DNA from: Pseudomonas taetrolens
GTDB lineage: Bacteria; Pseudomonadota; Gammaproteobacteria; Pseudomonadales; Pseudomonadaceae
Assembly: GCF_900475285.1 (NCBI RefSeq)
Contig: NZ_LS483370.1
Span: 3,362,001 to 3,426,000, forward strand
DNA length: 64,000 nt
Direction: 5' to 3'
Part shown: in pieces, positions 4,244 to 52,560 of the stretch
Numbering within the stretch: position 1 is the first letter of the stretch
Layout of the letters: every line of letters starts with the position of its first letter
The notes under the pieces: model-generated
What the model saw: only the letters and a program-made list of their open reading frames with translations
Database searches by the model: none
Told to the model about the DNA's origin: nothing
Made by a program: the position numbers and the translations under genes

Positions 4244-4660
4244 ATGAGCAGCCAGACGTACAGTATTTCCGACCTTGCCCGCGAGCTGGACATCACCACA
4301 CGCGCCATTCGCTTTTATGAAGAACAAGGACTGCTCGCCCCTGAACGACGCGGTCAGGAGCGGGTGTATTCAGCGCGGGACAAAGTCAGCCTGAAACTGA
4401 TATTGCGCGGCAAGCGCATCGGCTTTTCGCTGGCTGAATGCCGCGAATTGATCGAGTTGTATGACCCGAGCAGCGGCAATCAAAAACAGCTGAACAGCAT
4501 GCTGGGCAAAATTGCCGAACGCCGTGAGCAACTGGAACAACAGTTGCTGGATATCCAGCAAATGCAGCTGGAGCTGGATACCGCCGAGGAGCGCTGTACC
4601 CAGGCACTTGAGCAAACCATTAAAAGCCAGACGGCCTCCCGGACCTCGACAGTGCTATAG
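4244..4660 (+). CDS. liuR: MerR-family regulator LiuR of leucine/isovalerate utilisation
   Basis: A 138-residue MerR-family regulator. Residues about 6-75 are the winged-helix DNA-binding domain (YSISDLARELDITTRAIRFY, EEQGLLAPERRG), followed by a long helix (about 85-130) that forms the dimer coiled coil. LiuR of proteobacteria controls the liu genes for branched-chain acyl-CoA degradation. The assignment rests on the domain, on mvaB immediately downstream, and on the MerR-type palindromes before liuA and before this gene. It is probably cotranscribed with mvaB (90-base gap). Confidence 0.85.
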   Translation: MSSQTYSISDLARELDITTRAIRFYEEQGLLAPERRGQERVYSARDKVSLKLILRGKRIGFSLAECRELIELYDPSSGNQKQLNSMLGKIAERREQLEQQLLDIQQMQLELDTAEERCTQALEQTIKSQTASRTSTVL

Positions 4661-4749: not shown

Positions 4750-5646
4750 ATGACACTTCCCACCCATGTGCGCCTGATCGAAGTCGGTCCGCGCGACGGC
4801 CTGCAAAATGAAGCCATGCCCATCAGCGTGGCAGACAAGGTGCATCTGGTAGACGCCCTGACCGACGCCGGGCTTGGCTATATCGAAGTCGGCAGTTTCG
4901 TTTCGCCCAAATGGGTGCCGCAAATGGCAGGCTCCGCCGAAGTCTTCGCCCGGATCCAGCACAAGCCCGGGGTGGTCTATGGCGCGCTGGCACCCAATTT
5001 GCGCGGTTTTGAAGACGCCGTGGCGGCAGGCGTCAAGGAAGTCGCCGTGTTTGCGGCCGCCTCCGAAGCCTTCTCGCAACGCAATATTAATTGCTCGATC
5101 AGCGAAAGTCTGGCGCGCTTTGTGCCCATCATTGAAGCCGCACAACAACACGGGATCAGCGTGCGCGGCTATGTGTCCTGCGTGCTCGGCTGCCCGTACG
5201 AGGGCAACGTGCCTCCGCAACAGGTCGCGGCCGTGGCCAAAGAGCTGTACGCGATGGACTGCTACGAGGTTTCCCTGGGGGACACCATCGGCACCGGTAC
5301 ACCCAACGCTACACGGGCGATGTTCGAGGCTGTCACCGCGCACGTGCCGCGAGAAAAACTCGCCGGGCATTTCCACGACACCTACGGTCAGGCGCTGGTG
5401 AATATTTACGCGAGCCTGCAGGAAGGGATCGCCGTGTTCGACAGCTCGATCGCCGGACTTGGCGGCTGCCCCTACGCCAAGGGTGCCAGCGGTAACGTGG
5501 CCACCGAAGACGTGCTGTACATGCTCCAGGGCATGGGCATTGAAACCGGGGTCGACATGGACAAGCTGCTGCTGGCCGGGCAACACATCTGCAACGTGCT
5601 GGGTCGTGTTACCGGTTCACGGGTGGCCAAGGCGCGCCAGGGCTAA
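4750..5646 (+). CDS. mvaB: Hydroxymethylglutaryl-CoA lyase
   Basis: A 298-residue HMG-CoA lyase (also called LiuE). It splits 3-hydroxy-3-methylglutaryl-CoA into acetyl-CoA and acetoacetate, the last step of leucine degradation. It is a TIM-barrel of the DRE-metallolyase family: [11 protein letters not shown] near residue 10-20 holds the metal and catalytic residues, the HFHDT segment provides metal-binding histidines, and [14 protein letters not shown] carries the active-site Cys240. It follows liuR and lies apart from liuABCD, separated by the crcY sRNA and an acyl-CoA ligase gene. P. putida has the same mvaB-crcY adjacency. A terminator lies at 5703-5726. Confidence 0.95.
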
Positions 5647-5659
5647 AAGTGTGCCGCGG

Positions 5660-5690
5660 TGTTACCGCACTGTCACTGAAACGAGTAACA
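5660..5690 (+). promoter_or_regulatory. Probable CbrB activator sites upstream of crcY
   Basis: TGTTAC at 5660-5665, a near copy TGTCAC at 5671-5676, and the inverted copy GTAACA at 5685-5690. TGTTAC half-sites are the described CbrB recognition element upstream of Pseudomonas crcZ/crcY. They lie about 85-115 bases before the -24 element at 5774, a usual distance for an RpoN-dependent activator. Confidence 0.65.
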
Positions 5691-5702
5691 CGGAAACAAA
5701 CC

Positions 5703-5726
5703 GACCGGCCTCATGGCCGGTTTTTT
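5703..5726 (+). terminator. Rho-independent terminator of liuR-mvaB
   Basis: The stem ACCGGCC-TCAT-GGCCGGT is followed by TTTTTT. It sits between the CbrB-type sites and the crcY promoter, so mvaB transcription should stop before the sRNA. Confidence 0.8.
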
Positions 5727-5771
5727 ATGGCCATAAAATACAAGCCATTGATTTATAACGATTTTTAAAAG

Positions 5772-5788
5772 TTGGCACGGCTCCTGCT
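5772..5788 (+). promoter_or_regulatory. Sigma-54 (RpoN) promoter of crcY
   Basis: TTGGCACG with GG at 5774-5775 and TGC with GC at 5786-5787 leave exactly 10 bases between the invariant GG and GC, the canonical -24/-12 spacing. The predicted start is near 5799. Confidence 0.85.
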
Positions 5789-5798
5789 ATCTCTATGG

Positions 5799-6183
5799 CA
5801 TAACAAGAATAAAAATTGCGGCAACATAATAAAAACAATACGAAACGACTCTGACATAACAAAAACAACACGGCAGAGACGCAGCTAACAGATTTTTTTG
5901 GAGAAGGTTTACTTTTCCGGGGAGCTAACAAGCCACCTCGCAACCGGGCAGAGAATAATAAAACTACCTTCAGGTAGCACCCGCACAGGTTGGATCACAG
6001 GTTTGATAGCCAGTGATAAAAGTGGATCAGCGCTCAAAAAAATACGTTTGCTCTTGATCCCGGATGGGGATCACCAAAACAGCAACAAAGGGCCACGGTT
6101 CCAAAAACAACAATAGACCGCCCCTCAATAATAAAAAAAGAGCACGCAACGACAAATTAAAGGGGAGCCTCGGCTCCCCTTTG
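5799..6183 (+). ncRNA. crcY: CrcY-type sRNA, titrates the Hfq/Crc catabolite repressor
   Basis: A noncoding transcript of about 385 nt predicted from an RpoN promoter and a terminator at 6159-6183. It carries six clusters of the Hfq/Crc-binding motif AAnAAnAA: 5802-5815, 5828-5838, 5858-5868, 5954-5961, 6103-6113 and 6127-6137. CrcZ/CrcY/CrcX RNAs sequester Hfq/Crc when CbrAB is active, relieving catabolite repression. The 5' end (GCATAACAAGAATAAAAA) looks like CrcZ of P. aeruginosa as I recall it. The position beside mvaB is why I choose CrcY rather than CrcX or CrcZ. A 72-codon frame inside (5898-6116) has no family likeness and is not taken as a gene. Confidence 0.88.
6159..6183 (+). terminator. 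crcY terminator
   Basis: Strong GC-rich hairpin (AGGGGAGC paired with GCTCCCCT, flanked by AA and TT) followed by a short TTTG tail. It defines the 3' end of the sRNA. Confidence 0.8.
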
Positions 6184-6220
6184 TGCTGTCTGGAGAACCT
6201 GAAAACCGCAAACCTCTAGC

Positions 6221-6275
6221 ACAGGAACGAGCGGCCAGCGGCACCATGGCCACGCGATAGACGTTCGCTCCTGCA
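6221..6275. repeat. REP-like inverted repeat
   Basis: CAGGAACGAGCG near 6222 and CGTTCGCTCCTG near 6263 form an inverted repeat matching at 10 of 12 positions, with a GC-rich centre. The form is that of the fluorescens-lineage REP elements. It lies just beyond the 3' ends of crcY and the convergent ligase gene. Confidence 0.55.
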
Positions 6276-6291
6276 AGGTTTCACCGCCCGT

Positions 6292-7977
6292 TCAGCGCAG
6301 TTGCTGGCACTCCTGAATGCTGATTTCGCGCATCTTGAACTTCTGGATCTTGCCGGTCACGGTCATCGGGAATGCCTCGACAAACTTGAAGTAGCGCGGT
6401 GTCTTGAAATGGGCGATTCGTGATTTGCACCAGGTCTGCAATTCCAGCTCATTGGCCACGTGTCCCGGATGCAGCTTGATCCAGGCGACGATCTCTTCAC
6501 CGTACTTGGCATCCGGAATCCCTACCACCTGTACATCGGCCACCGCCGGATGCGTGAAGAAAAACTCTTCAAGCTCACGCGGGTAAACGTTTTCGCCGCC
6601 ACGAATAATCATGTCCTTGTTGCGCCCGACAATGCGCACATACCCCTGCTCGCTCATCTCGGCCAGATCGCCGGTGTGCATCCAGCCTTCGCTGTCGATG
6701 GCTTCCCGGGTGGCCTGCGGGTTGTTCCAGTACCCCAGCATCACGCTGTACCCCCGGGTACAGAGCTCGCCTACCTGACCACGCTCAACGATGTTGCCTT
6801 GAGCATCGACCAGTTTGCTCTCCAGCTGCGGCTGGGTACGTCCCACCGTCGTCACCCGCAACTCCAGGTCATCCGCCGGGCCGGTCTGGATCGATACCGG
6901 GCTGGTCTCGGTCATGCCATAGGCAATTTGCACCTCTCCCATGTGCATCTCACGAATCACCCGACGCATCACTTCGATGGGGCACGTTGCCCCGGCCATG
7001 ATCCCGGTGCGCAGGCTCGACAGATCAAACCCGGCCCGTTGCGGATGATCGAGCATGGCGATAAACATGGTGGGCACGCCGTACAACCCGGTCGCGCACT
7101 CTTCGGCAACCGCTTGCAAGGTCAGGCCCGGGTCGAAAGCATCACTGGGATAAATCATGGTCGTGCCATGAGTCACACACCCCAGATTGCCCATGACCAT
7201 GCCAAAGCAGTGATACAGCGGCACCGGGATTACCAGCCGATCGCTGGATGTCAACCCGAGGCTTTCGCCGACCATATAGCCATTATTGAGAATATTGTGA
7301 TGACTGAGGGTTGCCCCTTTCGGGAAGCCTGTGGTGCCTGAGGTGTACTGAATGTTCACCGGCTGATGGAACTGCACGCTGGCCTGACGGGCATAGAGCT
7401 GGCTGACCGGCACCCCGGCGCCTGCCGTCGCGAGTTGCGACCAGGGCATGAAACCGCACGGCGGTTGCTCGCTGAGGCTGATGACCCCGCGCAACGCTTC
7501 AAAGCGCTCACTCTTGAAATGCCCTGCCGGTTGCGCGGCCAGTTCCGGGATCAACGTCTGGAGCATGGCGTGATAATCGGATGTCTTGAACGCACCCGCG
7601 CACACTAGCCACTGACAGGCCGACTGTTTGAGCACGTACTCCAGCTCAGCAAGACGATAGGCCGGGTTGATATTGACCAGAATCACGCCGATTTTGGCAC
7701 TGGCGAACTGGCAGATGAACCATTCAACACAGTTGGGCGCCCATACCCCGAGCCGGTCACCCGCCTCCAGGCCCAATGCCAGTAGCGCTCTGGCGTGCAG
7801 GTCAACCGCCTGCCCCAGTTGCGCCCATGTATAGCGCTGGCGCTGATGGCAGACGACCAACGCCTCGCCTTCAGAATAACGTGCAACCGTTTGATCGAAA
7901 GCCTGACCGATGGTCATCGCCAGCAGGGCCTTGTCTTGAGCGCCCTGGCTGTAACTGGGGACAGATTGCGACTTCAT
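6292..7977 (-). CDS. AMP-forming acyl-CoA ligase, divergent from liuA
   Basis: A 561-residue ANL-superfamily adenylate-forming enzyme that activates a carboxylic acid to its CoA thioester with ATP. Visible motifs: P-loop-like [25 protein letters not shown], the hinge-region MHTGDLAEM, and the C-terminal catalytic Lys in [14 protein letters not shown] 7977 is chosen because GAGGAG precedes it by about 7 bases; upstream in-frame codons would run through the LiuR-type operators. It shares the operator region with liuABCD, so it is probably in the LiuR regulon, and a role in activating free isovalerate or a related acid is an inference. A gene of this kind next to liu is usual in fluorescens/putida relatives. 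Confidence 0.85.
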
Positions 7978-8068
7978 GGCAACTCCTCTTGTGATTGTTT
8001 TGGGAGCATGAGCAACGCGGATCTCGGCGCTGTCTCTAGAGGGAGAACGGTCATTACTCTGGCCTAAG

Positions 8069-8084
8069 TTGACGTTAACGTAAA
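8069..8084. promoter_or_regulatory. LiuR-type operator 1
   Basis: TTGACGTTAACGTAAA differs at one base from the perfect palindrome at 8111. It lies between the divergent ligase and liuA genes, closer to the ligase. Confidence 0.8.
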
Positions 8085-8110
8085 GGTCATTGACAGCCTT
8101 GCCCGCCAAG

Positions 8111-8126
8111 TTTACGTTAACGTAAA
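8111..8126. promoter_or_regulatory. LiuR-type operator 2 (perfect palindrome)
   Basis: TTTACGTTAACGTAAA is a perfect 16-base palindrome matching the published LiuR motif as I recall it. A TTGACA (8090-8095) lies on its upstream side, as expected if a MerR-family regulator sits between -35 and -10 of the liuA promoter. Confidence 0.85.
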
Positions 8127-8157
8127 GCATACCCGTGGCGATGCCGCCATCGCCCCC

Positions 8158-8168
8158 AATAAGAACAA
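8158..8168 (+). promoter_or_regulatory. Hfq/Crc-type A-rich motif in the liuA leader
   Basis: AATAAGAACAA contains two overlapping AAnAAnAA motifs 15 bases before the liuA start codon, next to the ribosome-binding region. This is where Hfq/Crc blocks translation of catabolic mRNAs in Pseudomonas. Confidence 0.6.
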
Positions 8169-8183
8169 CGATCAAGGTGCACC

Positions 8184-16816: not shown

Positions 16817-16848
16817 TTGATTTGCAAATGATAATGATTATTATTGCA
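16817..16848 (+). promoter_or_regulatory. prrF promoter with overlapping Fur box
   Basis: TTGATT at 16817-16822 and TATTAT at 16839-16844 form a sigma-70-type promoter with a 16-base spacer. Bases 16830-16848 match the 19-base Fur consensus at 14 positions (GATAATGAT is exact) and cover the -10 box, so Fur with iron should block it. Confidence 0.85.
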
Positions 16849-16851
16849 TGC

Positions 16852-16966
16852 AGCTGGTCGCGAGATCAGTCGATAATTCAAGGGACCTTAGGTCGGTCTT
16901 TTGAATTACCTCCTCATCAGGCTAATCACGGTTATTTGACCCGGCTCATGGCCGGGTCTTTTTTTT
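16852..16966 (+). ncRNA. prrF: PrrF iron-responsive sRNA
   Basis: An sRNA of about 115 nt. The 5' end AGCTGGTCGCGAGATCAG and the central CCTCCTCATCAGGCTAATCA (about 16909-16928) match PrrF1/PrrF2 of P. aeruginosa as I know them; the central stretch is the region that pairs with sodB- and sdhD-type mRNAs. The 3' terminator is at 16938-16966. It is repressed by Fur and made under iron starvation, when it shuts off iron-using proteins. One copy is in the window. The other PrrF gene is expected elsewhere, since the two are not in tandem outside P. aeruginosa. Confidence 0.93.
16938..16966 (+). terminator. prrF terminator
   Basis: Stem GACCCGGC/GCCGGGTC (16938-16945 with 16951-16958), then eight T. 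Confidence 0.92.
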
Positions 16967-52225: not shown

Positions 52226-52310
52226 TGGTGCGGACGGAGAGACTCGAACTCTCACACCTTGCGGCGCTGGAACCTAAATCCAGTGTGTCTACCAATTCCA
52301 CCACATCCGC
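52226..52310 (-). tRNA. tRNA-Leu (anticodon TAG)
   Basis: 85 bases with acceptor GCGGATG, long variable arm, TTCGAGT T loop and encoded CCA. The anticodon loop is TTTAGGT, so the anticodon is TAG, reading CUN leucine codons. Confidence 0.93.
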
Positions 52311-52328
52311 ATTTCAAACTTTTGAAGC

Positions 52329-52359
52329 AAAGACGCCAGATGATTAATCTGGCGTCTTT
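52329..52359. terminator. Hairpin between tRNA-His and tRNA-Leu genes
   Basis: AAAGACGCCAGA pairs exactly with TCTGGCGTCTTT around a 7-base loop. A terminator-like hairpin inside a tRNA operon may dampen tRNA-Leu or be an RNA processing signal. Confidence 0.6.
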
Positions 52360-52366
52360 CTAAATA

Positions 52367-52442
52367 TGGGGTGGACGAAGGGGATCGAACCCTCGACAAC
52401 GGGAGTCACAATCCCGTGCTCTACCAACTGAGCTACGCCCAC
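52367..52442 (-). tRNA. tRNA-His (anticodon GTG)
   Basis: 76 bases, GTGGGCG acceptor, anticodon loop TTGTGAC (GTG), TTCGATC T loop, CCCCA end. An extra G at 52443 fits the G-1 of tRNA-His. Confidence 0.95.
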
Positions 52443-52483
52443 CATATTGCCTGTGTTGCCTTACTTGTGCCAAAGCTGCCTAA

Positions 52484-52560
52484 TGGCGCACCCGGCAGGA
52501 CTCGAACCTGCGACCATCCGCTTAGAAGGCGGATGCTCTATCCAGCTGAGCTACGGGCGC
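52484..52560 (-). tRNA. tRNA-Arg (anticodon TCT)
   Basis: 77 bases, GCGCCCG acceptor, anticodon loop CTTCTAA (TCT), TTCGAGT T loop and encoded CCA. It reads AGA/AGG. First gene of the Arg-His-Leu cluster. Confidence 0.95.

Follow-up and report, generated by a model that had tools for sequence, protein, structure and literature searches.

The intergenic gap behind mvaB in Pseudomonas taetrolens almost certainly holds crcY, which encodes a CrcY-type RNA of the CrcZ family and would act as a sponge for Hfq and Crc. The first-pass annotation had proposed such a catabolite-control RNA, and this reading is supported by a match to the Rfam model RF01675, by the place of the RNA next to mvaB and by its position in a tree of the family. 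"The window" below denotes the whole stretch of DNA that was analysed (64,000 nucleotides). This places a known global regulator in the gap. For P. putida the same gene order, MerR-mvaB-crcY, has been reported (PMC6292655), the P. taetrolens genome also encodes CrcZ, Crc and Hfq, and the RNA belongs to the mvaB-linked clade; the finding itself is therefore already known. What is worth following beyond crcY is a long-range helix within the RNA and the wider circuit to which the family belongs.

An RNA of the CrcZ family in the gap

The gap has the size first given for it, 645 bases (5647-6291), and runs from the end of mvaB at 5646 to the end of the minus-strand ligase gene at 6292. The genes and reading frames concerned are the following:

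4244..4660, plus strand: MerR-type regulator gene, upstream neighbour (Pfam MerR_1, 1.6e-16)
4750..5646, plus strand: mvaB, hydroxymethylglutaryl-CoA lyase (Pfam HMGL-like, 2.8e-55; NCBIfam NF004283, 489.3 bits, cut-off 246)
5725-5943, minus strand: a second 72-codon TTG frame in the gap (ORF list)
5898-6116, plus strand: 72-codon frame with a TTG start codon inside a helix strand (ORF list)
6292..8175, minus strand: acyl-CoA ligase gene, convergent neighbour (Pfam AMP-binding, 5.1e-87; NCBIfam NF009233, 939.6 bits, cut-off 832)

We take the MerR gene to occupy the position of PP3539 in P. putida, which is presumably a MerR gene as well. Elsewhere in the window lie a PrrF iron-responsive RNA (16817-16966, 151.1 bits) and three consecutive tRNA genes on the minus strand (52229-52560).

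The check that had been suggested, a search with the Rfam CrcZ model, matched RF01675 over its full length (1-398) at 5800-6214, with 307.8 bits against a cut-off of 95. The fold z-score of the RNA was -5.23, and 0 of 100 shuffles were as low. The RNA and its elements, all on the plus strand, are as follows:

5799..6186 (end approximate): CrcY RNA, start inferred from the promoter and end from the hairpin
5802..5815: AAnAAnAA cluster 1 (this and the other clusters by motif scan)
5828..5838: AAnAAnAA cluster 2
5858..5868: AAnAAnAA cluster 3
5883..5901: long-range helix, 5' strand (fold, alignment, covariation)
5954..5961: AAnAAnAA cluster 4, inside the helix-closed domain
6034..6052: long-range helix, 3' strand (fold, alignment, covariation)
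6103..6113: AAnAAnAA cluster 5
6127..6137: AAnAAnAA cluster 6
about 6159..6182: terminator hairpin, GC-rich, 10-11 pairs (consensus scan, fold)

The six AAnAAnAA clusters of the first-pass annotation were borne out. The 385-base stretch contains 12 overlapping sites in six clusters, compared with shuffled means of 1.9 sites and 1.4 clusters; among 5000 dinucleotide shuffles of the same bases, none reached six clusters and two had eleven or more sites. Other 385-base pieces of the window, taken on both strands in 5-base steps, never had more than three sites. The uneven spacing, with three clusters in the first 70 nt and three in the last 230, had also been described correctly. The "strong terminator" was half right: the GC-rich hairpin of 10-11 pairs is present, but on the plus strand GTGCTG stands where a T run would be expected to follow, and the consensus scan reports the hairpin for the minus strand only. 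This hairpin may be shared from both sides by crcY and the convergent ligase gene.

Promoter and upstream sites

The following sites precede the RNA:

5660..5665, plus strand: predicted CbrB half site of the forward type, TGTTAC (hexamer match)
5685..5690, plus strand: predicted CbrB half site of the reverse type, GTAACA (hexamer match), 25 bp from the forward hexamer
5703..5722, plus strand: terminator-like hairpin after mvaB (consensus scan)
5741..5753, minus strand: IHF-like site between the CbrB sites and the promoter (strict pattern match)
5774..5787, plus strand: sigma-54 promoter core GG-N10-GC (sequence only)

The RpoN promoter had been called exact, which holds for the GG/GC core; the 16-mer at 5773-5788 has one mismatch to what we take to be the long sigma-54 consensus, TGGCACGNNNNTTGCW. 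None of the other hits among the 19 in the window has fewer than two mismatches. When two mismatches are allowed, hits are not commoner in the window than in its shuffles (19 hits, shuffled mean 18.4), and the promoter therefore carries weight by its place rather than by its rarity. In 38 of 38 mvaB-linked loci, the core starts 26-29 bases before the start of the CrcZ model. Counting 12 bases from the -12 GC puts +1 near 5799.

TGTTAC and GTAACA are each present in all 38 mvaB-linked loci examined. Of the CbrB subsites at crcY (F1, R1 and R2, plus R'), we found one perfect F and one perfect R hexamer, perfect hexamers only being scored. The forward-to-reverse distance is 25 bp in the window copy, which is one of six loci with 24-25 bp, compared with 34-36 bp in the remaining 32 of the 38; the two classes differ by about one DNA turn. 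The strict IHF pattern, based on what we take to be the IHF consensus, was found in 30 of the 38 loci. The hairpin at 5703-5722 could reduce a read-through form of CrcY in this strain.

CrcY and CrcZ copies within Pseudomonas

All 199 genus genomes searched have at least one RF01675 match over the cut-off. Counted by eye, 22 have one copy, 153 two, 22 three and 2 four, under strict filters by which weak copies were possibly lost. The P. taetrolens genome (4.84 Mb, one contig) has two, the window copy (307.8 bits) and a copy behind cbrB at C1:4024039-4024432, which scores higher (333.3 bits). The partners cbrA, cbrB, Crc and Hfq are encoded in the same genome. Its Crc matches the solved Pseudomonas Crc 4jg3 with 537.5 bits, and the top match is 2myi (591.6 bits), labelled exodeoxyribonuclease III.

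We examined 74 loci, a non-random set made up of the best-scoring matches, genomes with both copies listed and the nearest relatives. They lie by mvaB (38), by cbrB (34) or by neither (2). Six clusters are present in 36 of the mvaB-linked loci and seven in the other two, with much the same uneven spacing in all 38; the cbrB-linked loci have six clusters in 33 cases and five in one (L043). The tree of the 74 loci separates a 39-row group (the 38 mvaB-linked loci and L071) from a 35-row group (the 34 cbrB-linked loci and L046) with support of 100/99, and the window copy is placed inside the former. Because it adjoins mvaB and falls in the mvaB-linked clade, the window copy is CrcY rather than CrcZ, CrcX of P. 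syringae being known here from papers only. Several branches of the tree are long, and joins between them, for example of L055 with L071, are possibly false. L071, an extra copy of genome G018 that lies by neither mvaB nor cbrB, groups with the CrcY copies and may be CrcX. L046 (genome G001) also adjoins neither gene and groups with the CrcZ copies.

A predicted long-range helix in the RNA

The strands 5883-5901 and 6034-6052 can form a long-range helix, for which 18 pairs are possible in the family and 16 are formed in the window copy. Clusters 1-3 lie before the helix, cluster 4 inside and clusters 5-6 after it. The Rfam consensus line marks only about five of the 18 pairs. The helix was evaluated on an alignment (A2) built on sequence alone, whose 52 rows are the window copy and 51 of 172 usable loci of our own choice, including 12 of 13 Marinobacter representatives; three further loci beyond the 172 had no usable RNA. 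Some of the sequences tested had already been inspected when the helix was drawn.

In the 52 rows, 89.5% of the helix cells pair; shifting the partner by 1-3 columns lowers this to 35.5-56.6%. Covariation scores 0.220, a value that none of 500 shuffles reached (0.138, sd 0.007) and that falls to at most 0.105 after the shift; related sequences without structure can also exceed all shuffles on this score and on the pairing percentage. The count of pairs with two-sided change is the stricter test: it is seven, compared with a shuffled mean of 3.8, and 2 of 500 shuffles gave as many. For further pair types, 100 of 500 shuffles attained the observed count. The helix thus covaries. In L048 (group f8), for instance, GUAAGU stands opposite ACUUAC where most rows have GCnAAC and GUUUGC, and G-U pairs account for part of the pairing retained in the remaining two rows of that group. 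One row, Mar_L124, was retained in the alignment with a 3' strand that pairs poorly (6 of 18 unpaired).

The 5' motif of the helix is absent from 13 loci. Four of these (L046, L072, L089 and L177) are in the alignment, and nine were left out, namely L146 and the eight loci of groups f44, f13, f40 and f36 (L171-L174 and L180-L183); the helix is therefore not universal on present evidence. In the literature covered, including the accessible parts of PMC9890229 and PMC13022988, we found no description of it. It may nevertheless have been published already, and the first CrcY paper possibly shows a predicted fold. The helix offers a concrete explanation, open to tests by mutation, of the uneven cluster spacing in the family; such spacing is already known in kind from P. 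aeruginosa CrcZ (PMC4063720).

A putative wider circuit outside Pseudomonadaceae

An order-wide search with RF01675 gave a match (E up to 0.001) in 42 of 194 genomes, seven of them Pseudomonadaceae. Ten of the 42 were over the cut-off, comprising the seven Pseudomonadaceae and three genomes of group f2, and many of the others were short or weak; one Pseudomonadaceae genome (G366) had no match in this search. The class-wide search gave 5 of 274 genomes: P. taetrolens itself and G218, both Pseudomonadaceae, and three weak hits of 20.7-29.7 bits, which make no sound case for the family beyond the order.

In 11 of 13 outer loci (groups f2, f34, f20 and f8), a CbrB homologue with 62.0-67.5% identity lies beside the RNA; of the other two, L047 starts at a contig end and L048 shows none. 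Ten of a further 13 outer loci have a CbrB homologue (56-64%), the exceptions being L175 and L176 (f8) and L183 (f36). The stretches of all three f8 loci (L048, L175 and L176) thus contain no cbrB. The weak matches of groups f44, f13, f40 and f36 (L171-L174 and L180-L183) have three to nine A-rich clusters and lack the helix motif; L183, with no cbrB in its stretch, has eight or nine clusters.

A search pattern of three hexamers and GGCAC, which was built from f2, f34 and f20 and so could find only loci like these, hit 72 named stretches: 67 from Marinobacter, 2 from Zooshikella and one each from a Halomonas bin, a Nocardioides bin and Photorhabdus. The -12 GC, the clusters and CbrB were outside the pattern; of the 72 stretches, 71 combine the -12 GC with two or more clusters, and 69 also encode CbrB. 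The Photorhabdus stretch, without any of these, was taken as a chance hit. Genus names rest on named records only, and not on group labels such as f20.

Marinobacter algicola (L100) has cbrA, cbrB, the RNA and pcnB in the same order as the P. taetrolens genome, with identities of 52% over 976 residues for CbrA, 61% for CbrB and 54% for the pcnB product. Zooshikella (L156) has the same order (CbrA 53%, partial, over 672 residues; CbrB 66%; pcnB product 58%). Pfam found PAS, HisKA and HATPase domains in the CbrA of both and, at E 0.001, reported no transporter domain; their CbrB scored 416.2 and 435.5 bits with the NtrC model, below its cut-off of 558.6. Judged by sequence, the module of cbrA, cbrB, a putative CrcZ-like RNA and pcnB is present in Marinobacter and Zooshikella records, and cbrB with a predicted CrcZ-like RNA in further Pseudomonadales. 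Crc was rejected as a marker of the wider circuit: a homologue was found in 22 of 22 genomes tested (38-52% identical outside P. taetrolens, best hit each), including three without a CrcZ match (G201-G203), and it is thus not diagnostic.

As far as the accessible parts of the two papers go, Pseudomonas and Azotobacter have been called the exclusive hosts of CbrAB (PMC8871633), and CbrAB exclusive of Pseudomonads (PMC6296734). The former statement does not fit the genomes searched here. A seawater study counted cbrA and cbrB transcripts, and its accessible part does not mention the RNA (PMC5073097). Our search, mainly of the open literature, found no publication linking CrcZ, or CbrB with CrcZ, to Marinobacter. 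If the circuit is present there, Marinobacter would be a second place to test Hfq-based carbon control.

Proposed mechanism and alternatives

The function of CrcY and CrcZ has been published for P. putida, P. aeruginosa and Azotobacter (PMC6296734, PMC4063720, PMC6292655, each in the part accessible), and from these relatives we infer the control of transcription, including expression and CbrB dependence, the capture of Hfq and Crc and the relief of repression. On poor carbon, CbrB at its sites in 5660-5690, helped by an IHF-induced bend in the intervening DNA, would activate sigma-54 RNA polymerase at 5774-5787 and give a transcript of about 390 nt. The RNA would consist of two open A-rich arms (clusters 1-3 and 5-6) flanking a helix-closed middle domain with cluster 4. 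The A-rich clusters would bind the distal face of Hfq, together with Crc, and draw Hfq away from catabolic mRNAs, which could then be translated. In all this crcY would act alongside the cbrB-linked copy of the genome, crcZ. Points against the crcY reading are the missing T run after the hairpin, the presence of two perfect CbrB hexamers only, and the Rfam score below that of the CrcZ copy. A broader two-part proposal has, taken jointly, about an even chance of being right: that CrcY and CrcZ are scaffolds whose helix aligns the two A-rich arms so that several Hfq hexamers and Crc form one particle, and that the cbrA-cbrB-crcZ-pcnB module predates Pseudomonadaceae, with catabolite control in Marinobacter, Zooshikella and other Pseudomonadales still depending on it.

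A coding role for the gap, in which the 72-codon TTG frame at 5898-6116 would instead yield a small protein, has a negligible probability. The frame is open in the P. taetrolens genome and, from the same TTG, reaches 59 codons in 6 of 37 other mvaB-linked loci, but it stops after 2 to 53 codons in the other 31, with 12 codons the commonest length; it is hence shorter in all 37. Pfam matched neither this frame nor the minus-strand one, the start codon sits in a helix strand, and the RNA model accounts for the whole stretch. The first-pass annotation was right that the gap has no believable gene, and we rejected the protein. It is improbable that the RNA is more than a sponge and also regulates mRNAs by base pairing from a seed in its conserved, non-A-rich blocks: the blocks around 5883-5901 and 6034-6052 are kept across CrcY, CrcZ and the outer relatives, but they pair with each other and covary, which explains their conservation without a target.

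Two further alternatives accept the RNA and differ from the crcY reading in its use or its origin. The window copy could be an idle, decaying duplicate, with crcZ doing the work. Besides its lower Rfam score, this agrees with the single match in 22 of the 199 genus genomes (by eye, strict filters); the four such genomes that were examined (G008, G012, G013 and G014) carry their copy beside cbrB, and a genome can therefore do without crcY. Against this, the copy retains an intact promoter core, two intact CbrB hexamers and all six clusters in the spacing of the family, and we regard decay as very improbable. It is somewhat less improbable, though still unlikely, that the RNA is mainly processed from a long merR-mvaB transcript (as CrcY*) rather than made from its own promoter. 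PP3539-mvaB-crcY read-through and a processed CrcY* are described for P. putida in the accessible part of PMC6292655; in P. taetrolens, by contrast, a transcript running on from mvaB would meet the terminator-like hairpin at 5703-5722 before the promoter, and 38 of 38 mvaB-linked loci keep the sigma-54 core. We therefore retain crcY with its own promoter as the preferred reading.

Comparison with known systems

The published systems are compared here as described in the accessible parts of the papers. CrcY of P. putida KT2440, likened by description, resembles the window copy in its place behind mvaB, its sigma-54 promoter, TGTTAC and GTAACA, and IHF (PMC6296734, PMC6292655). CbrB subsites and IHF have been reported at both crcZ and crcY of P. 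putida, with four subsites at the latter, F1, R1, R' and R2 (PMC6296734), whereas only two perfect hexamers were found at the window copy. In P. ogarae, crcY was found by BLAST (PMC12552145). P. aeruginosa CrcZ has six A-rich stretches, three of them within the first 151 nt, and gives three shifted bands, consistent with one Hfq hexamer per stretch (PMC4063720). CrcX of P. syringae, known here by description only, is a CbrB-activated sponge of the same family (PMC8871633).

The CrcZ copy of P. taetrolens (C1:4024039-4024432) shares with CrcY the RF01675 match, six clusters at nearly the same places and the same helix; it differs in lying behind cbrB, in sequence (69% identical over 406 columns) and in belonging to a separate clade. 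The cbrB-linked RNAs of Marinobacter and Zooshikella have the sigma-54 core, CbrB hexamers and A-rich clusters in common with the window copy, and the helix in those aligned, but they have three hexamers with a spacing of their own. Groups f20 and f34, which score 33-73 bits and so fall below the Rfam cut-off of 95, appear by their layout to resemble the Marinobacter and Zooshikella RNAs.
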